DNA of 48,136 nucleotides, from NCBI RefSeq assembly GCF_024372745.1, contig NZ_VOTZ01000020.1, forward strand, positions 1 through 48,136. Reading direction: 5' to 3'. Each line of letters starts with the position of its first letter. Positions within the stretch are counted from its first letter, which is position 1. The notes under the pieces were generated by a model. It was not told the DNA's origin. It saw nothing but the letters and a program-made list of their open reading frames with translations, and made no database searches. This document shows, piece after piece, positions 3,618 through 13,018 of this stretch. The position numbers and the translations under genes are program-made. The stretch comes from Methanocalculus taiwanensis. GTDB taxonomy: Archaea; Halobacteriota; Methanomicrobia; Methanomicrobiales; Methanocorpusculaceae.

Positions 3618-4994
3618 TTATTCTCCACCCATCCTCATGATCCGGACAGCCGGGCTTGATCGCTCAAAGAATGATGCCAGAAATACCGATAGATCCTCAT
3701 TCCAACAGTCAGCATCGCGCGCAACCTCCCAGCCATGCTCTGCCATCGCCTTTCGGACATGCTTACCAAGAGATCCATCCAGAAGGATTGTGGATGAGAG
3801 AAGGGCAACAGCTTCGGTATAGGAACGGCGTATCTCGACTATATAACGCCCATTCTCAATAAAGGGACCTGATAGGGGATTTTTTTCGACATATTTCCTG
3901 ATGAACCGTCCCGCATTGTCACCATTTGTTACCGGGGGGCCGATATGCCGGACAACAGGGGGAACGGTATCGTTGAAGAGCTCAAATAGAATGACCGATC
4001 GATCCTCTCCCATCCAGCAGTCGTTCCGGTTCACGGAGAAGCCCATGCGTTCCAGAAGTTCTCTAATCGCTTCCATACTCTTCCTGAGCTGGGGTACGAT
4101 GGTATCCGGGACATAAGGGGGTGTTGGAAATGAGATAGTGTACAGGGAGGTCCCACGTTCGGCGAGTGCCAGCCTGACCTGGCTTCTTGTGAAGGAGACG
4201 GGGCTGTGAATTGTGAAGAATGCATCAGATGGTTCACTTTCATAAGCTCGTGCGAGTTCAATAAAAGCGCACATCTGATCAAGTGAGAGGGCAGCGGCGA
4301 CATTCCGGTTCGGATCGGTCGGATCCACCACCACAAGCGGCTCACTGAAGGAGCGTTGCATGTGGTTTTCCAGATCAATCACCATTCCCGGCCGCCAACA
4401 AGCTGCTTTACTGATGAGCTGGTTAAAACCCCCATAGTAGAGTACCAGGAGTTCGCAAAGATATCCTGAAAAACCCTCTGTCATGTGATCTGATCCATAT
4501 ACGCCCCCGGCTTTTGTGAACTGTTTCATCAGGAGGGCATCATCGACAAAACCGGCGATCCGTGGAATGATGTACCGCGTGTGAAACGGCGTCCTGTCCA
4601 CTGCACTCTGGATCTCACGGGCAGATACCACATGATAGCAGGGAACAAGATCGATATCAAGATCAAAAATCCTTGCATTCAGGTATGGATGCTCTGCATA
4701 TTTCTCAACAGCAGTCCCCCCGAAGTAGTCGACGACGGCACGCCCAAGACCAATCCCCTCCCTCGCCAGATCATCCCGGGGGAGATCCGGGGGGAAGAGC
4801 ATGAAGATATCGAGATCGCGATCCCCACGGACGAATGTGCCTCTGGCAACCGATCCGACAACCATGGAAGGACGCCGATGACACTCCATCAGGTACGCAA
4901 TAATCCGATCCGAAATGGTACGGAGATGTTCCACCTCCTCGGGAGTCGGCCTTACCCGGGAAAGGATATCCTCTTCAAAGGGGCTCCTGCTCAT
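3618..4994 (-). CDS. cca: CCA-adding tRNA nucleotidyltransferase, archaeal class I
   Basis: The enzyme adds or repairs the 3' CCA of tRNAs with CTP and ATP, without a nucleic acid template. The 458-residue length fits archaeal class I enzymes. The nucleotidyltransferase signature is clear: GSVARGTF at 47-54, catalytic Asp60 and Asp62 in RDLDIFMLF, and a further acidic strand LDIDLVPCY near 112-120. It overlaps the downstream end of thpR by four bases (ATGA), so both RNA-repair genes are probably translated together. Both tRNA genes in this window lack an encoded CCA, so this activity is needed. Confidence 0.96.
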   Translation of the reverse strand: MSRSPFEEDILSRVRPTPEEVEHLRTISDRIIAYLMECHRRPSMVVGSVARGTFVRGDRDLDIFMLFPPDLPRDDLAREGIGLGRAVVDYFGGTAVEKYAEHPYLNARIFDLDIDLVPCYHVVSAREIQSAVDRTPFHTRYIIPRIAGFVDDALLMKQFTKAGGVYGSDHMTEGFSGYLCELLVLYYGGFNQLISKAACWRPGMVIDLENHMQRSFSEPLVVVDPTDPNRNVAAALSLDQMCAFIELARAYESEPSDAFFTIHSPVSFTRSQVRLALAERGTSLYTISFPTPPYVPDTIVPQLRKSMEAIRELLERMGFSVNRNDCWMGEDRSVILFELFNDTVPPVVRHIGPPVTNGDNAGRFIRKYVEKNPLSGPFIENGRYIVEIRRSYTEAVALLSSTILLDGSLGKHVRKAMAEHGWEVARDADCWNEDLSVFLASFFERSSPAVRIMRMGGE

Positions 4995-5530
4995 AAAGGC
5001 ACCTCTGTTATTGTCTCATATATTGGGCCACGGGGGGTGAGCGTGCTCTTCTTCAGGACAAAACCTGCAACCTCCATCTCTCCACAAACCCAATCTGAGA
5101 GGGAATCGATAGCAACCGGTATATCCGGGTGATACTCCTTCACACGCGCCAGAGTAATATGCGGCCGGAATGGACGTTTTTCACGGGAAAAACCAAGGGG
5201 TTCAAGGGCAGCATCGATTTCATTTGCAAGCGCACCAGTTCTCCCCCCATCCTCCACCACTGCCCAGATGACCCGGGGGCGCTTTGGATTGTTTGAAGAG
5301 ATACCGCAAATTCTGAGGGTGAATGGGGACGATTCTACAGAATGAAGTACTTCACCGACTCCGCGAACCTGATCGGCAGGCACTTCTCCAAGGAATTTCA
5401 GGGTGATGTGAAGGAGCGAGGGGTCAACGATTGCAAGCCTCCCGGAACACGTTTTCAGCGGCTCCTGTACAAGAGAAAAAGCCTCACGAAGGGAGGCTAC
5501 AAGATCGATTGCTACAAACGCCCTCACCAT
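4991..5530 (-). CDS. thpR: RNA 2',3'-cyclic phosphodiesterase (2H family)
   Basis: A 179-residue member of the LigT/ThpR 2H phosphoesterase family, which opens 2',3'-cyclic phosphates on RNA ends. The two hallmark HxTx motifs are present: HITL at 41-44 and HITL at 124-127, at the usual spacing. The start begins MVRAFVAIDL, typical for the family. It is the upstream gene of a two-gene unit with cca (ATGA overlap), a common archaeal pairing. Its start abuts a near-perfect palindrome at 5531-5552. Confidence 0.95.
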   Translation of the reverse strand: MVRAFVAIDLVASLREAFSLVQEPLKTCSGRLAIVDPSLLHITLKFLGEVPADQVRGVGEVLHSVESSPFTLRICGISSNNPKRPRVIWAVVEDGGRTGALANEIDAALEPLGFSREKRPFRPHITLARVKEYHPDIPVAIDSLSDWVCGEMEVAGFVLKKSTLTPRGPIYETITEVPL

Positions 5531-5552
5531 AACGGTTAACCTGTTTACCGTT
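5531..5552. promoter_or_regulatory. Imperfect palindrome next to the thpR start
   Basis: Two 10-base arms, AACGGTTAAC and GTTTACCGTT, are separated by CT and differ from perfect symmetry at one position. The palindrome ends one base before the thpR ATG on the minus strand, in the divergent region with the glutaredoxin gene. It could be an operator or a hairpin in the thpR leader; no regulator is recognised. Confidence 0.45.
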
Positions 5553-5613
5553 TCGTCACAGAAAGGGAAATATCTTCACCCCGGTTATGTCAGGAGAATA
5601 ACAGATATCAGAT

Positions 5614-5650
5614 GATAAATAAGAATAGTGGTAAGGTATAGATCTATACC
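5614..5650 (+). promoter_or_regulatory. Promoter and candidate operator of glutaredoxin-nrdD
   Basis: A TATA-like stretch (GATAAATAAG, near 5614-5623) is followed by a perfect 16-base palindrome GGTATAGATCTATACC at 5635-5650. The palindrome falls where the transcription start would be expected, about 20-30 bases below the TATA element, a usual place for an archaeal repressor site. The glutaredoxin ATG lies 19 bases further on. The palindrome is seen directly; its role is inferred. Confidence 0.5.
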
Positions 5651-5669
5651 AATAACAGGGGTATGCCTC

Positions 5670-5933
5670 ATGTCTGAAGTTCACGATATCATTGTCTATT
5701 CACTTGAAGTCTGTCCGAACTGTGAAATACTCAAACAATACCTTCAGGACAATTCGATCCCCTATATGGAACGAAGCCTTGAGGACCCCGAATCACTAAC
5801 CGATCTCCGGATGAATGGCATATTTGTGATGGAAGCACCTGTGCTCCAGATAGACGAGACATACCTGACTTCACAGGAGATCTTTGAAAAAGGCGCTGTA
5901 TCGGCGTCGATTGCAGGTATGTGCCGACGGTGA
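5670..5933 (+). CDS. Glutaredoxin/NrdH-like redoxin
   Basis: An 87-residue thioredoxin-fold protein with the redox pair CPNC (Cys15, Cys18) after a first beta strand, and a predicted cis-Pro region at EAPVLQID. I chose the ATG at 5670, preceded by a GGGGT element, over an in-frame start at 5628, because it begins right before the fold. It ends seven bases before nrdD, whose ribosome binding site overlaps its end, so translation is likely coupled. Some class III ribonucleotide reductases take electrons from such a redoxin rather than formate, so it is the probable reductant of the next gene product. Confidence 0.88.
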   Translation: MSEVHDIIVYSLEVCPNCEILKQYLQDNSIPYMERSLEDPESLTDLRMNGIFVMEAPVLQIDETYLTSQEIFEKGAVSASIAGMCRR

Positions 5934-5940
5934 AGGCTGC

Positions 5941-8900
5941 ATGAAAGAGACGCGGCAGTCAACACTTGACGGGGCATTTCAGCCCCCGATGCCCAGGGTG
6001 CGGACATCCTTTGGCCATATGATGGAATGGGATCGCCAGAAGATTGTCCAGCAGATCCTCAGTGAAACCCGTCTTGTAGAAACATTCTATGGAAGAGAAG
6101 GCGCAGAGCTGGAACTCGCAGAGCAGATAGCGCAGAGTGTCGAGAACCGGATCAAGAAACTCGGCCTCACATTCCTTTCAGGCCCTCTTATCCGCGAGAT
6201 TATGAACATCACACTCCTTGAAGAAGGGCTTGTCGACTACAGAAACGTCTGTACCCGGGTCGGCACACCAGTCTATGATGCGCATCAGATCGATGTCGGG
6301 CGAGGTTTTGAGGCAAAGGACAACTCGAACCTCCAGGAGAATGCCGAAACCTCGCACAAGAAGAAAGCAGACAAGATCAGCAAAGAGCAGTACCTGCTTC
6401 AGCTCCCACCTGAACTCGCCGATCTCCACCTGACCGGTGATATGCATGTCCATGACCTTGAATATTTCGGGACAAGGCCGTTCTGTATAGACGGAAAAAC
6501 CGTCATCCCCGTGAAAAGCGAAGGGCGAATCAGGAGCACCAGAGTCGATGAAATTCCAATAGACGGGGATGAACACTTCCCCCTTGATATCTCTCTTCTT
6601 ACGCCCAAAGGCTGGAAACGTGTGAATAAGGTGACACGAAGAGTCCCGGATGATGGAGAACTGCTCAGGATAAAGACATCAGGCGGCCGCTCGCTCTCTA
6701 TCACCCATGAGCACAGGATCCCGATACACACAGAAGATGGGATGGTAATCCGGAAGGCAGATGAGATTAGAGAAGGAGATATCCTCTACACAATTACTGC
6801 ATCCGATTCGGTCAGGGGAGAGCCGGTGAATAAGATAAACCTGATCCGTGAACTCACTGATTTCGTGCCGGAAGAGCTTCTTGCCGGAATATATGTGCGG
6901 GGGGCAGCAGATCTCTTCTCTGAAATTGTCAGGACAGGGCAGGCAGGATCCTTCACTGCGATCTCAGGAACCCTTGGGATAAAACACAGGAAGCAGTGGT
7001 ATTCAAGAGGTATTATGCCCGTTCGTCACTTCCGGGCATTGTGTGAACACTATGGAATCGTTGAGATGACAGGTTTGACAGTCGGGGCAACCGGCAGTGA
7101 ACATGCCCTCCCAGCTCTTCTCCCAATCACCCCTGACCTGATGCGGCTGCTTGGATTCTTCGTCTCTGAAGGTAATTACAGTACCTCGCCAAAAGTCGGA
7201 CAGTACAATCTTGCGATCACGGAAAACCATCATTCAGCCTCGATACAGGCATCAGTAAAGGCTACACTCAATACCTATGCAACGATCACCCTCCCAACCC
7301 CGGATACAACACAGATCTACGGGATTGATGTTCAAAGGAATCGAGCACAGCAGGTCTATTTTGGGGGGAAGATTGTCTATCTCCTCTTCCGGCATATCTT
7401 CAGAATACCAGAGGGAAGCACCAGGAAGCGGCTGCCCTGGATAGTCTATCATGCCAATGACGCATTGCTTCGCGACTTCCTTTCAGCACTCTTCACTGGC
7501 GATGGAACGGTGTACTATCGTCCTGAAAAGTCAGATTGTATCATCAACTATACAACAGCATCAGAGTCACTTCGCCAGGAACTTGCACTCCTTCTGACAA
7601 CACTCGGCATAGGTGTGCACATCACCGAGCTGTATAATGATGATACAGAACGGCGGATACTCTATCGCATCCAGTTTCATGGAAGAAAGAATATCGATAT
7701 CTTTTCCAGATACTGTTCGTTCCTCGATGAGAGGCAGGATCATATCGATCGCTTCCTCCAGCAGACGCAGAAGATCGACCGGACAGATAAGCCTGAACGC
7801 GTTCTTGCCATCGAACCCAGGACACCCTCCGGCAGATATGTCTACGATCTCTTCATTGAAGGCGACGGCAGCGAGGAGAGCCATACCTTCTTTGCATCGG
7901 ACGGCCTCCTTATTCACAATTGCCAGGACTGGGATCTCCGCTATTTCTTCTACTATGGCTTAATGCCGGATGGAAACGGAACAAAAGCCAGTGTAGCTGG
8001 TCCAGCAAAACGCGCCGAGGTGGCGGTCCTTCATGCAGTCAAGGCACTTGGATCCGCACAGACAAACTTTGCCGGAGGGCAGGGCTATTACAACTTCCTC
8101 ACCTTCTTAGCACCCTATGTCGAGGGGATGGACAGAACCGAGATAAAACAGCTGATGCAGATGTTTGTCTATGAGATGACCCAGATGATGGTCGCACGAG
8201 GTGGCCAGGTCGTCTTCTCATCAGTGCAGCTCTCGCCGGGGGTGCCAAAGCTCTGGCGTGACAAACCGATTGTCTTCAAGGGCAAGGTCTGGAATGGCAG
8301 GCAGGCTCCGTTCAGAGCATATGGAGAGTTTGAACGTGAAGTCCGGCTTCTCTTTGCAACCCTGATGGAAGTCATGCTTGAGGGAGATAACTGGGGCAAG
8401 CCCTTCAACTTCCCAAAGCCAGAGATCAGCATCGAACCGGACTTCATGGAGGAATATGAGGAGTTCAATACACACCACCCGGATATACCCACCTACCGTG
8501 AGCTCTATCTGATGACATTTGAACTCGCCTCGAAGTTCGGTACTCCATATTATGACAACCAGCTCCCGGCGTACCGTGGTGCCGGGGAGGGGATCTCATG
8601 TTACCAGTGCTGTGCCTACCAGTTCTCGACAACCGCGGCAAATGACACCACATTCGAGGACAAACTCAATTTCACAGACGGTAAACATTTCTCGATGGGA
8701 TCCTGGCAGGTGATCTCGGTGAACTGTCCGCGGGCAGCATACCGTGCCGATCATGATGACCAGAAGCTCTTCTCCGAACTAAAGAAACAGATGGATTCAG
8801 CGGTCTCTATCTTTAAGATAAAACGCCGCTGGATGGAGCTTGTCAGGGCAAACGGGAGGATGCCGTTTGCGATGCAGAGGCCAAAAGATCCAAAGACACA

Positions 8901-9561
8901 GGAACGGGGATCTGTCGCTGTCGATCTCGACGGACTCGTCTATACAATTGGTATTGTGGGCGTTAACGAGATGATACAGCACCATCTCGGATCCCAGCTT
9001 CATGAGACAAAGGAAGCATTCAGGTTAGCAGTCCGGACAATGACCGAGATGGAACAGTATGCTAAGAAACTCTCGATCAAACACGGGATGACGATTGCAC
9101 TTGCACGCACCCCGGCTGAGACGACCGGGCAGCGGTTTGCCGTTGCAGATCTGCTTGACGAGAACTTCCGCCCCCATGCCCTCCGAATCGTCAAAGGTGA
9201 TACAAAGAACCTGCTTGAACGGTCAAAGAAGACGCTCGATCTCCCGGTGTATTATACAAACGGTATCCATGTCACACCATCAGCAGATGTTCCCCTGACA
9301 AAGCGTATGGAGATAGAGCATGTCTTCTTCCCGATCGTCGACGGCGGCAATATCTTCCATATCTGGCTTGGAGAGGGCCGCCCCGACCCACGCGGGCTGA
9401 TGGATATGGCAATGAACCTCTGCAGGACCACCCAGATTGGATACTTCGCCTTCACCCGCGACCTGACGGTATCACTCAAACAGTTCACCGAGTACCGTTC
9501 CGATAAAACACCCGAGGCGAGCGGGAGCATCGTTCAGGCAGACCGGCGTGTGCTGATCTGA
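5941..9561 (+). CDS. nrdD: Anaerobic ribonucleoside-triphosphate reductase, intein-containing precursor
   Basis: This 1206-residue precursor makes deoxyribonucleotides for DNA synthesis. Residues 182-660 are an intein; the joined exteins give 727 residues, near usual NrdD size. The N-terminus has an ATP-cone-like region (about 20-110). Extein landmarks are GDMHVHDLEYFGTRPF, then CQDWDLRYFFYYGL after the intein, and a Cys-rich active-site loop GISCYQCCAYQFS. The start at 5941 (MKETRQSTLDGAF) follows GGTGAAGG. The C-terminus is odd: after IGYFAFTRDLTVSLK, where family members carry four zinc cysteines and an RVxGY-type glycyl-radical motif, only about 29 residues remain, without cysteine or that motif. 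No nrdG activase is adjacent. Confidence 0.9.
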   Translation: MKETRQSTLDGAFQPPMPRVRTSFGHMMEWDRQKIVQQILSETRLVETFYGREGAELELAEQIAQSVENRIKKLGLTFLSGPLIREIMNITLLEEGLVDYRNVCTRVGTPVYDAHQIDVGRGFEAKDNSNLQENAETSHKKKADKISKEQYLLQLPPELADLHLTGDMHVHDLEYFGTRPFCIDGKTVIPVKSEGRIRSTRVDEIPIDGDEHFPLDISLLTPKGWKRVNKVTRRVPDDGELLRIKTSGGRSLSITHEHRIPIHTEDGMVIRKADEIREGDILYTITASDSVRGEPVNKINLIRELTDFVPEELLAGIYVRGAADLFSEIVRTGQAGSFTAISGTLGIKHRKQWYSRGIMPVRHFRALCEHYGIVEMTGLTVGATGSEHALPALLPITPDLMRLLGFFVSEGNYSTSPKVGQYNLAITENHHSASIQASVKATLNTYATITLPTPDTTQIYGIDVQRNRAQQVYFGGKIVYLLFRHIFRIPEGSTRKRLPWIVYHANDALLRDFLSALFTGDGTVYYRPEKSDCIINYTTASESLRQELALLLTTLGIGVHITELYNDDTERRILYRIQFHGRKNIDIFSRYCSFLDERQDHIDRFLQQTQKIDRTDKPERVLAIEPRTPSGRYVYDLFIEGDGSEESHTFFASDGLLIHNCQDWDLRYFFYYGLMPDGNGTKASVAGPAKRAEVAVLHAVKALGSAQTNFAGGQGYYNFLTFLAPYVEGMDRTEIKQLMQMFVYEMTQMMVARGGQVVFSSVQLSPGVPKLWRDKPIVFKGKVWNGRQAPFRAYGEFEREVRLLFATLMEVMLEGDNWGKPFNFPKPEISIEPDFMEEYEEFNTHHPDIPTYRELYLMTFELASKFGTPYYDNQLPAYRGAGEGISCYQCCAYQFSTTAANDTTFEDKLNFTDGKHFSMGSWQVISVNCPRAAYRADHDDQKLFSELKKQMDSAVSIFKIKRRWMELVRANGRMPFAMQRPKDPKTQERGSVAVDLDGLVYTIGIVGVNEMIQHHLGSQLHETKEAFRLAVRTMTEMEQYAKKLSIKHGMTIALARTPAETTGQRFAVADLLDENFRPHALRIVKGDTKNLLERSKKTLDLPVYYTNGIHVTPSADVPLTKRMEIEHVFFPIVDGGNIFHIWLGEGRPDPRGLMDMAMNLCRTTQIGYFAFTRDLTVSLKQFTEYRSDKTPEASGSIVQADRRVLI
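6484..7920 (+). mobile_element. Intein in NrdD with LAGLIDADG homing endonuclease
   Basis: An in-frame protein-splicing element of 479 residues inside nrdD. It starts with Cys1 (CIDGKTVIPV) after extein residue Phe181. The splicing block B ITHEHRIP gives Thr74 and His77, and the end is GLLIHN, with penultimate His and terminal Asn, followed by a +1 Cys of the C-extein. Two dodecapeptide motifs of a homing endonuclease are present: LLGFFVSEG (222-230, Glu229) and LSALFTGDG (333-341, Asp340). All catalytic residues for class 1 splicing look intact, so a functional element is likely. Removing it restores the continuous NrdD motif TRPFCQDWDLRYF. Confidence 0.96.
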
Positions 9562-9611: not shown

Positions 9612-12242
9612 ATGCGAGAGCCATCTGTCAAAAAGGAACTCTTCTGGTGTGATTCCTGCAATATTCCGCTTATCGGGAGGAGATGCGGATGTGGGAGAGA
9701 GGCACGGGCGATCCCCTTGCTCGAACCATATGACCTGAGGCCCGCCCTTCGTGCAGATTGTGATCTCATTCAGAGACTCATCAATGAGCGATTTGGAGCT
9801 GTGCCCCTCCCTGACATAATCCTCCTGAACAAGACAGGCGGAAGGGACAGATCTGATCTCATCATCATGAATGGCAGCCGCTTCGGGTGGCTTCTCTTCG
9901 ACCCGGTATCCCGGCAGTTCTCACTGGATATTGCAGTTGAATCTCTTTCGTACCTGCTGAACTATGCAGCAGACGGCATCGTGAATCTCGATGATCATTT
10001 CGACGGGGATAAGAAGGTCAGGATCGGCGGGAAGCGCTTCCCCCTGAAGGAATCTGTCCGGGAAGGCACCGTCATTGTCCGGTACAGGAGAAAATATGGA
10101 ACCGGCGTTGTTCGGGACGGGCATATCAGGGTCAAAGAGCTTGTACAGGTGAGCAGGGTAAACCCTCCAAATCCGGACTGGAAGAAGGCAATCCAACAGA
10201 ACGAGTACCATCTCAAACTTATGGAGAGGGATGCCCTGCGGATCATCAAAAAACATAAAAATGACCGGCCGACCGCAAATGCCTCCTTTTCAGGTGGAAA
10301 AGACAGTGCCGCAGTCCTTCATCTAGCCAGGAAAGCCGGGGTGGACTCCGCCTTCTTCATCGATACCGGAATCGAACTCCCTGAGACCATTCAGTATATC
10401 GAATCCCAGGGTGTGCATATCATCAGAAAAGCCGGAGACTTCTTCGCTGCAGCCGAAAAGGCGGGACCACCGGGAAAAGATCACCGCTGGTGCTGCAAAC
10501 TCTTAAAACTCCACCCACTCAGGGCATACCTCTCTGAGATTGGGCCTTCAGTCACATTCCAGGGGAATCGGTGGTATGAATCATGGAACCGCGCTGATCT
10601 TGATGAGACCAGCCAGAACCCGGCAAACCCTCTCCAGCTGAATGTATCGCCGATCCGTAACTGGCGGGCCTTTGAGGTCTTCCTCTATCTCTGGTGGCAG
10701 AATGTACCAATCAACCCACTCTATGATATGGGACTTGAGCGGATCGGCTGTTATCTCTGCCCTGCAATGCTTGAGAGTGAATACGAACAGCTCAGATCAC
10801 TCCACCCCGAACTCACCGACCGGTGGGATCGCTTCCTGATAAGATGGGCAGAGGATCATGGCCTCCCAGATGCATACCACACTATGGGGCTGTGGCGATG
10901 GAAGGCGCTCCCCCCGAAGATGCGTGAGCTCTGCCGCGAATATGAAATCCCGGTCAACAAGGACTTCACCCTCAGGGAGAATCAGGTTCAGAAGAAGGAG
11001 GAAGGGATGCTGACGAGAGAAAAGAGGAATGATGAATCACAGGAGAGGAACACAAGCGCCCATTTTTCCGAAACAATACGGCGGGACTTTCCGATCATTC
11101 ACGACTGCATCTACCTCGACTCAGCGGCAATCAGCCTCTCCCCGGAACCGGTCGTAAATGCTGTTGTTGAATTTGAACACCGGTACCGCTCAAATGTCGG
11201 CAGGGGCATCCACAGGTTCACACAGATCGCATCCCAGCGGTACTGGCATGCCCATGAGAAGGTCGCCCGGTTCATTGGCGGGGAGGAGGGAACCACCGTC
11301 TTCACGAAGAATACCACTGAGTCGATTAATATGGTTGCCCATGGCCTCTCATGGAAACCGGGGGATCGAGTCATAACCACCATCCTCGAACACCATTCGA
11401 ACCTCCTCCCATGGAGAGCGCTTGCAGAGGAGGGAGTCGAACTCTCTGTTATCGGCATCAGACCCGATTATTCACTCGATCTCAAATCCCTTGAAGAGGA
11501 GATCAAAAAAGGCGCACGTCTTGCTGCAATCACCCATGCCTCAAACGCAATCGGGGTGGTAACCCCTGTGAAGGAGATCGCAAAGATATGCAGGAGATAC
11601 AATACCCTGCTCCTCATCGATGCCGCACAATCTATCCCCCACATGCCGGTGAATGTAGGGGATATCGGCTGTGACTTCTGCTGTTTCTCGGGCCATAAGA
11701 TGCTTGCTCCCACCGGAACCGGCGTCCTCTGGATGAGGGAACCTATCATTGAACCGATGATGCTGGGCGGGGGGATGATCGAAGAGGTGCATCGGGATGG
11801 GTTTGTCCCGATTGAGGGATACCAGAAATATGAAGCCGGCACCCCGAATATCTCAGGTGGGATCGGCCTTGGGGTTGCGGTCGATTATCTCAATACAATC
11901 GGAATGGAGCAGGTACGTTGCTATGAGGAAGGGCTCACAACACAGCTGATCAAAAGCCTCTCACAAATCGAGGGAGTCACTGTTTTCGCACCCACTGATT
12001 CCAGCTACCGGATCGGCGTTGTCTCCTTTTCAATCAAAGGACTCCACCCACACGAGGTTGCTGAGCGACTCGATCACGAGTATGACATCCTGGTGAGATC
12101 GGGGCATCACTGCTGCCAGCCGCTGATGGAATCCCTCGGGCTCCCCAATGGAACCGTCAGGGCAAGCCTTGCCCTTTATACCACTGAAACAGAGATCGAT
12201 CTCCTGGCAGCAGCCGTCCAGGAGATCACGAGGAGCCTCTGA
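9612..12242 (+). CDS. Fusion: PP-loop (PAPS reductase-like) protein + cysteine desulfurase
   Basis: An 876-residue two-part protein. The first part has a zinc-ribbon-like N-terminus (Cys13, Cys16, Cys25, Cys27), an unassigned domain to about 185, and an ATP-pyrophosphatase domain with PP-loop SGGKDS (227-232) and cysteines Cys294, Cys295, Cys380 and Cys383 that could hold an Fe-S cluster. The second part (about 488-876) is a SufS-type PLP enzyme: Asp670 in LLIDAAQS, PLP lysine Lys696 in SGHKM, and catalytic Cys834 or Cys835 in RSGHHCCQPLM. It could take sulfur from cysteine and pass it to an adenylated substrate, but the substrate is unknown. An internal start at 11007 may also yield the desulfurase alone. 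Its last 17 bases overlap fdhD, which is convergent. Confidence 0.9.
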   Translation: MREPSVKKELFWCDSCNIPLIGRRCGCGREARAIPLLEPYDLRPALRADCDLIQRLINERFGAVPLPDIILLNKTGGRDRSDLIIMNGSRFGWLLFDPVSRQFSLDIAVESLSYLLNYAADGIVNLDDHFDGDKKVRIGGKRFPLKESVREGTVIVRYRRKYGTGVVRDGHIRVKELVQVSRVNPPNPDWKKAIQQNEYHLKLMERDALRIIKKHKNDRPTANASFSGGKDSAAVLHLARKAGVDSAFFIDTGIELPETIQYIESQGVHIIRKAGDFFAAAEKAGPPGKDHRWCCKLLKLHPLRAYLSEIGPSVTFQGNRWYESWNRADLDETSQNPANPLQLNVSPIRNWRAFEVFLYLWWQNVPINPLYDMGLERIGCYLCPAMLESEYEQLRSLHPELTDRWDRFLIRWAEDHGLPDAYHTMGLWRWKALPPKMRELCREYEIPVNKDFTLRENQVQKKEEGMLTREKRNDESQERNTSAHFSETIRRDFPIIHDCIYLDSAAISLSPEPVVNAVVEFEHRYRSNVGRGIHRFTQIASQRYWHAHEKVARFIGGEEGTTVFTKNTTESINMVAHGLSWKPGDRVITTILEHHSNLLPWRALAEEGVELSVIGIRPDYSLDLKSLEEEIKKGARLAAITHASNAIGVVTPVKEIAKICRRYNTLLLIDAAQSIPHMPVNVGDIGCDFCCFSGHKMLAPTGTGVLWMREPIIEPMMLGGGMIEEVHRDGFVPIEGYQKYEAGTPNISGGIGLGVAVDYLNTIGMEQVRCYEEGLTTQLIKSLSQIEGVTVFAPTDSSYRIGVVSFSIKGLHPHEVAERLDHEYDILVRSGHHCCQPLMESLGLPNGTVRASLALYTTETEIDLLAAAVQEITRSL
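10995..11009 (+). promoter_or_regulatory. Internal ribosome binding site and ATG before the desulfurase half
   Basis: AAGGAGG at 10995-11001 lies five bases before an in-frame ATG at 11007 (residue Met466, MLTREKRN), exactly in the linker between the PP-loop and desulfurase domains. This is stronger than the site at the gene's own start, where I see no clear Shine-Dalgarno sequence. It could direct a separate 411-residue cysteine desulfurase. Confidence 0.6.
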
Positions 12243-12969
12243 TCCTCCCGGGATGGGATAAGCAGGCAATTCTTCCATCTGAGATGCGGGATACGAGGCA
12301 GAGGTTTCTGTCGACAGCTATCCTGACTGCAAGATCTGTTGCCTTGCCTGTTGAGACCAGGATCGGTATCCCGGCAAGGAGGCATCTCCTGATCATCTCT
12401 GAGGTGACCCTGCCGGATATGCAAAGAAATGTTTCGGAAAAGTTCACCTTCTTCATCAGCCCGTGCCCGATCGCCCGATCCACTGCACACCGGCAGTCGA
12501 TATCCCGATACGATACGATTAACCCATTTTGATCTGCAAGTGCCGCCGATTCCATCTCACCAGAGAGTGAAGCAATATGATCCCTGATGGCAGAAAGAGA
12601 AACAAACCTATTCCCAGGTATTTTTGGGAGGGACGATGTGTCGATATACGAGGTACTCCCACCGCATCCGGCAAGGATAGTCTTTCTCCGTCCGGTGATC
12701 CGAAAAGGGTTTGTTGTCAGAACACTGATCCGGTTCTTCTCGATTCTGATCGATTCGATATCATCTGTTGACCTGATGATCTCTTCAGAGAAGAGATACC
12801 CGACCACATACGCCTGAAGACTGCCGGGAGAGAGGATAGTGGTATCTGCATGGCGCCCATTCACAAAGAGCGCAACAACCGTCTCTTCGAGTAGAGACCC
12901 TTCTGTCCCCATGCATTCACTATCATCCAGAAGAACGAAAACAGGAGATGCGGGGTCTAAATGAGTCAT
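12226..12969 (-). CDS. fdhD: Formate dehydrogenase accessory sulfurtransferase
   Basis: A 247-residue FdhD protein, which carries sulfur from a cysteine desulfurase to the molybdenum or tungsten bis-pterin cofactor of formate dehydrogenase. Family features are the cysteine motif AGCGGST, the central SGRVTSEM segment, and GIPILVSTGKATDLAVRIA. I chose the ATG at 12969 (MTHLDPASP), with a GGAG element upstream; a TTG at 13002 would add 11 residues. It overlaps the 3' end of the convergent PP-loop/desulfurase gene by 17 bases. It implies a formate dehydrogenase elsewhere and hence formate use. Confidence 0.93.
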   Translation of the reverse strand: MTHLDPASPVFVLLDDSECMGTEGSLLEETVVALFVNGRHADTTILSPGSLQAYVVGYLFSEEIIRSTDDIESIRIEKNRISVLTTNPFRITGRRKTILAGCGGSTSYIDTSSLPKIPGNRFVSLSAIRDHIASLSGEMESAALADQNGLIVSYRDIDCRCAVDRAIGHGLMKKVNFSETFLCISGRVTSEMIRRCLLAGIPILVSTGKATDLAVRIAVDRNLCLVSRISDGRIACLSHPGRIRGSS

Positions 12970-13018
12970 AATCTGGATCTCTTCTCCAGGTAGGAGAAAC
13001 AAGACGGGCTAAAAAAAA

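Follow-up and report, generated by a model that had tools for sequence, protein, structure and literature searches.

A PP-loop protein fused to a SufS-type cysteine desulfurase in Methanomicrobiales, a candidate sulfur donor for FdhD

Archaea of the order Methanomicrobiales encode, in one gene, a PP-loop enzyme joined to a SufS-type cysteine desulfurase. Here we report, on the basis of trees and gene neighbourhoods, that the desulfurase half is a branch of a SufS lineage tied to fdhD. We propose that the SufS half sulfurates the Mo/W cofactor via FdhD, that the PP-loop half acts as an ATP-dependent thiolase and that the protein is not an APS/PAPS reductase, a reading to which we give an even chance. 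The fusion itself has already been published (PMC6286981, 2018; PMC11237513, 2024) and is interpreted, in the available text of both papers, as an APS/PAPS reductase of sulfate assimilation. By description, the Methanomicrobiales fusion treated there (PMC11237513 cluster 536; PMC6286981 Figure 3) is the same kind of protein and likewise restricted to the order; its filing under sulfate assimilation is opposed here by residues and genome content, and a link to FdhD is absent from the available text of these papers. A gene link between FdhD and SufS was not found in the available text of the literature searched, nor was a link between FdhD and LarE found in the literature searched.

Results

Architecture of the fused protein

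The window, i.e., the whole stretch of 48,136 nucleotides that was analyzed, derives from a Methanocalculus taiwanensis genome (2.34 Mb, 99.86% complete) whose nearest named relatives, labelled Methanocalculus sp. and Methanocorpusculaceae archaeon, belong to Methanomicrobiales. The fused gene (Table 1) is a single uninterrupted ORF of 876 codons that starts with ATG and has no internal stop. The joining of a PP-loop enzyme to a cysteine desulfurase in one gene, first noted in a sequence-only reading, recurs in ~80 full-length orthologues (52-84% identity) spread across Methanomicrobiales. Chance or an assembly artefact is excluded as the source of the fusion, because the orthologues occur across the order and their catalytic residues show little or no variation among 45 distinct sequences.

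The domain make-up was directly observed. Residues 223-385 match Pfam PAPS_reduct (6e-36) and residues 7-450 match NCBIfam PRK13795 (NF010366; 1.7e-115), the latter with 386.6 bits, below the cut-off of 745, which marks a relative and not a member. Over these residues 7-450, the zinc ribbon, N-terminal domain and PP-loop domain are common to the fused protein and the archaeal PRK13795 proteins, whereas the Methanosarcinales members of that family have C-terminal ferredoxin domains where the fused protein has SufS. Residues 488-874 match TIGR01979 (SufS; 4.9e-122) with 407.6 bits, short of the 475.1 cut-off, so that the half is a close relative for which strict subfamily membership is not claimed; its best PDB match is 5b7s (E=1.4e-102). 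With SufS/CsdA the fused protein shares the complete domain, including the PLP lysine, the active-site histidine and the catalytic cysteine; it differs from them in having a PP-loop protein at its N-terminus and in belonging to a lineage that is fdhD-linked in the loci examined. Homology of the PP-loop half to DndC was rejected on a marginal model match (E=0.006). Structure predictions from 4-sequence alignments (the window plus L006-L008) had mean pLDDT values of 52 and 42, too poor for use.

Table 1. Coordinates of the fused gene, the adjoining fdhD and their main features in the window
Feature	Position	Strand	Basis or remark
Fused gene, 876 aa	9612..12242	+	Zinc ribbon, N-terminal domain, PP-loop/Fe-S-type domain, linker, SufS desulfurase
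Zinc-ribbon cysteines C13, C16, C25, C27 (C-x2-C...C-x-C, aa 13-27)	9648..9692	+	Sequence, conservation
Segment aa 119-190, position of the paralogues' PUA domain	9966..10181	+	Not recognisable as PUA (Pfam, profile comparison)
PP-loop SGGKDS, aa 227-232	10290..10307	+	Orthologue alignment
C294-C295, first half of CC...CxxC cluster motif	10491..10496	+	Conserved
C380-x2-C383, second half of CC...CxxC cluster motif	10749..10760	+	Conserved
C441 in LPPKMRE(L/V)C	10932..10934	+	Falls close to the catalytic cysteine tail of APS reductases in the alignment
SufS-type cysteine desulfurase domain, aa 488-874	11073..12233	+	TIGR01979, PDB 5b7s
PLP lysine K696 (SGHK)	11697..11699	+	Conservation
Catalytic cysteine C834 (RSGHHC)	12111..12113	+	Conservation
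fdhD, formate dehydrogenase accessory sulfurtransferase	12226..13002	-	Pfam FdhD-NarQ 6e-40
FdhD loop cysteine, aa 113 in AGCGG, equivalent to E. coli Cys121	12664..12666	-	Alignment with 4pde

Residue conservation

Across 45 distinct fused sequences the SGGKDS motif is invariant and the four cysteines C294/C295 and C380/C383 are conserved, as the sequence-only reading had described them; the zinc-ribbon cysteines are kept in 44, the exception being one truncated sequence. The earlier view of an adenylating-type PP-loop domain with an Fe-S-type cysteine set is thus borne out at the level of motifs, and the domain has the SGGxDS motif and sulfur-transfer cysteines of ATP-dependent thiolases. 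The cysteine set resembles that of APS reductases and would hold a [4Fe-4S] cluster on the PP-loop half. PLP lysine K696 and catalytic C834 (RxGHHC) are present in every distinct sequence but L066, and by these conserved residues the SufS half is an active-looking cysteine desulfurase, in agreement with the earlier suggestion. L066 (genome G002, 4046-6685) has lost the active-site histidine H594, K696 and C834 in the SufS half and retains intact PP-loop motifs, and the same genome also has a free sufS-fdhD pair (L109). Outside this single genome, a loss of catalytic residues in orthologues, which had been named as the outcome that would speak against the reading, was not seen. A fifth conserved cysteine, C441, had been overlooked. 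Proteins of the fused clade, split ones included, retain it except at the genus-g2 loci L063 and L064, where it is replaced; clade B, the PUA paralogues and the relatives fused to ferredoxin do not have it. It may be an acceptor of sulfur within the chain.

The zinc ribbon is homologous to that of a PUA-containing paralogue (hhalign 99.5%), and the ribbon plus ~125 N-terminal residues are common to the fused protein and the PUA-bearing paralogues. Pfam detects a PUA domain in paralogue L002 and none in the fused protein, for which profile comparison was also negative. Of the earlier hint of RNA or protein binding, the ribbon itself is confirmed, and the case for RNA binding is weak, the PUA segment being unrecognisable in the fused clade. 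These results bear on the possibility of a self-contained RNA (tRNA) thiolase, in which the PP-loop half would adenylate a base and the fused SufS would give the persulfide. Such an enzyme would be analogous to IscS with ThiI or to a desulfurase with Ncs6, and is consistent with SGGKDS and the Fe-S-type cysteines, with the N-terminal region shared with paralogues that have a real PUA domain, and with the NcsA-like genes found close to free sufS-fdhD pairs. It is opposed by the missing PUA signature, by the ThiI and NcsA-like proteins already encoded in the genome and by the neighbour linkage, which indicates FdhD. The fused protein has in common with IscS-ThiI and DndA-DndC the logic of a desulfurase plus a PP-loop enzyme but, unlike IscS-ThiI, is without ThiI-type domains. 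A tRNA target for the fused protein is possible but unsupported, and we place an RNA thiolase on the unlikely side.

Near-absence of sulfate activation

In the published and database reading, the protein is an assimilatory APS/PAPS reductase to which a desulfurase is attached. This reading draws on the PAPS_reduct match and on the CC...CxxC cysteines, which are those of APS/PAPS reductases and whose cluster is predicted, and PMC6286981, in its available text, puts proteins of this kind in one group with M. jannaschii enzymes for which APS or PAPS reduction has been reported; the activity of MJ_0973 has been termed low (PMC3448663). On the other hand, the fused protein has SGGKDS where true archaeal APS reductases have SGAED, and the APS reductase catalytic tail (KKECG/ECGLH) is absent from it, the corresponding tail being LPPKMRELC... 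True APS reductases with the motifs SGAED and KKECG do occur in Methanosarcinales, where they adjoin CysD. Within Methanomicrobiales, ATP sulfurylase (Sat) was found in none of 150 genomes, CysD exceeded the cut-off in 2 of 110, and a convincing APS kinase was present in ~4 of 150, the remaining matches being short P-loop matches. The window genome (G000) has no Sat and no CysD, has no more than weak P-loop hits with the APS kinase model, and encodes just two PAPS_reduct proteins, i.e., the fusion and one paralogue. Since the substrate pathway is nearly absent from the order, this is a strong argument against an APS/PAPS reductase; together with the motif and the missing tail it led us to reject that identity. 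Judged by its residues, the fused protein is not an APS/PAPS reductase, and we regard the sulfate-assimilation reading as very improbable. The sequence-only reading, which would have suffered had the orthologues worked in sulfate reduction only, gains from the scarcity of sulfate activation genes in these genomes.

Distribution and origin of the fusion

Among the matches listed for 246 sampled genomes from the phylum, full-length fused matches were confined to Methanomicrobiales and those outside the order spanned one half each. In the SufS tree, the fused and split forms make up one clade (bootstrap 98, SH-aLRT 96) that nests among free SufS, most of them in sufS-fdhD pairs; the fusion thus arose once, from the FdhD-linked SufS lineage. 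In the PP-loop tree, several unfused members branch within the fused ones. Given the single SufS clade and these nested unfused members, one fusion event followed by several splits is the simplest reading. The genome survey that had been advised at the outset recovered both fused and split forms, with fdhD as a frequent neighbour of the fused gene.

Linkage to fdhD

In the window, fdhD is convergent with the fused gene and overlaps its 3' end by 17 nt, a feature also missed earlier. Of 19 loci chosen for diversity without regard to fdhD, and non-independent through shared ancestry, 11 have fdhD next to the fused gene; these come from 9 of 13 genera. These 11 loci show convergent, divergent and tandem-downstream orders, and fdhD lies tandem-upstream in further loci, which gives four arrangements over all fused loci examined; such changes argue that the fdhD link was kept or re-made. 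Several genera (g2, g4, g10, and g13) are without the adjacency. Many genomes have two or three fdhD copies, and we estimate chance adjacency at ~0.2% per locus. Most adjacent pairs are convergent, so co-transcription is not expected for most of them; this, like the genera without the adjacency, weighs against the FdhD model.

Among free-SufS loci, fdhD was directly downstream in 16 of 20 (9 of 13 among those not known beforehand), and several of these pairs touch or overlap. In the loci examined, PP-loop genes of unfused clade A, of clade B and of the PUA paralogues had no adjoining fdhD. The association therefore tracks the desulfurase half, because free SufS pairs with fdhD and PP-loop genes without SufS do not. 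The earlier picture of a self-contained machine is not supported, as FdhD, a partner encoded separately, is linked to the desulfurase lineage. L058 and L070 each have an fdhA-fdhB-fdhD set, with a Cys-type fdhD in third place, that runs convergently toward the fused gene, and a third genome has a Cys-type fdhD after fdhAB; the FdhA model match was demonstrated for the L144 copy. The gene neighbours of the fusion suggest that it supplies sulfur for formate dehydrogenase activation. Against this model, the copy linked to fdhAB in the window genome is another FdhD that lacks the cysteine (L129).

Free sufS-fdhD pairs have further neighbours. LarE is directly upstream in L109, L111, L113, L122, L126, and L141, often with a small helix-turn-helix-like protein, and NcsA-like, NadA, and MoeB/ThiF-like genes lie nearby, in what is possibly a conserved sulfur-transfer cluster. 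ThiM- and/or ThiE-like genes are close to the fused gene in L068, L073, L074, and L077 (two genera); ThiM-ThiE and LarE occur near the fused gene in few loci and are left out of the main claim. In several genera, the clade-B unfused PP-loop paralogue (L046-L055) is flanked by a dnaK/dnaJ/grpE cluster on one side and a purH-like gene on the other. Elsewhere in the window's genome (L005), a SepCysS gene is convergent with a ThiI-like gene and overlaps its end. The anaerobic ribonucleotide reductase NrdD (window 5884-9561, + strand) contains an inserted intein that includes a LAGLIDADG endonuclease domain, and its orthologues in L008, L075, and L076 (~745-756 aa) have no such insert as judged by length.

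The relay cysteine of FdhD

In E. coli, FdhD passes sulfur from IscS to the molybdenum cofactor via Cys121, and M. maripaludis has no desulfurase and an FdhD without loop cysteines (PMC10609526). The FdhD next to the fused gene has this relay cysteine, and the Cys121 equivalent is present in all 17 fusion-linked and all 17 free-SufS-linked copies. Three more lone copies with the relay cysteine fall in the same clade as the linked ones. A second clade has Ser, Ala or Thr in place of the cysteine and includes the IscS-linked copies (4/4). Two archaeal FdhD kinds are thereby set apart, a relay-cysteine type tied to SufS and a cysteine-less type. Cysteine-less FdhD lies one or two genes from iscS in L130, L131, and L142; in L130 a CutA-like protein (4899-5225, by eye) is encoded between the two.

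Discussion

In the mechanism that we propose, the SufS domain would take sulfur from cysteine as a persulfide on C834 and deliver it in trans to the Cys-bearing FdhD encoded next door. FdhD would then sulfurate the Mo/W-bisPGD cofactor of formate dehydrogenase and possibly also of formylmethanofuran dehydrogenase. As in the E. coli IscS-FdhD relay, a desulfurase would act with a relay-cysteine FdhD and formate dehydrogenase would be the likely target; unlike there, the desulfurase is SufS-type and bears an ATP pyrophosphatase domain. In cis, the N-terminal domain probably takes the same persulfide via C441 and/or the Fe-S cluster, and the PP-loop half, presumably through adenylation, would carry out ATP-dependent thiolation of a second substrate or take part in the FdhD step itself. 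Two further points count against the FdhD model: FdhD does not account for what the PP-loop half does, and C441 is missing in genus g2. So does the presence of LarE, NcsA-like and NadA neighbours at free sufS-fdhD pairs, since a SufS of this kind might act as a hub that supplies sulfur more generally.

A different division of labour would have the PP-loop half activate sulfur or relay it to FdhD or the pterin, making the whole chain a cofactor-sulfuration enzyme. The single fusion with an FdhD-linked SufS, the frequent position of LarE, another PP-loop sulfurtransferase, upstream of free sufS-fdhD, and the conservation of C441 in the fused clade are in keeping with this. It is nevertheless unlikely in our view, as clade-B and PUA-paralogue PP-loop genes occur without SufS or FdhD nearby and G002 keeps its PP-loop half intact despite a dead SufS half. 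To our knowledge, moreover, bacterial FdhD requires no PP-loop partner in the IscS-FdhD relay. That an ATP pyrophosphatase with an Fe-S cluster on the desulfurase makes FdhD-dependent cofactor sulfuration ATP-driven or cluster-relayed is an idea that we hold to be quite doubtful; if true, formate or formylmethanofuran dehydrogenase would be activated by a new chemistry.

Our preferred reading remains SufS-to-FdhD transfer with a thiolase attached. Several methanogens have no desulfurases at all, and the finding bears on the sulfur source of methanogen Mo/W enzymes and thiolated molecules. If the FdhD model is right, a mis-annotated 'PAPS reductase' found order-wide would become a testable sulfur donor for formate dehydrogenase.
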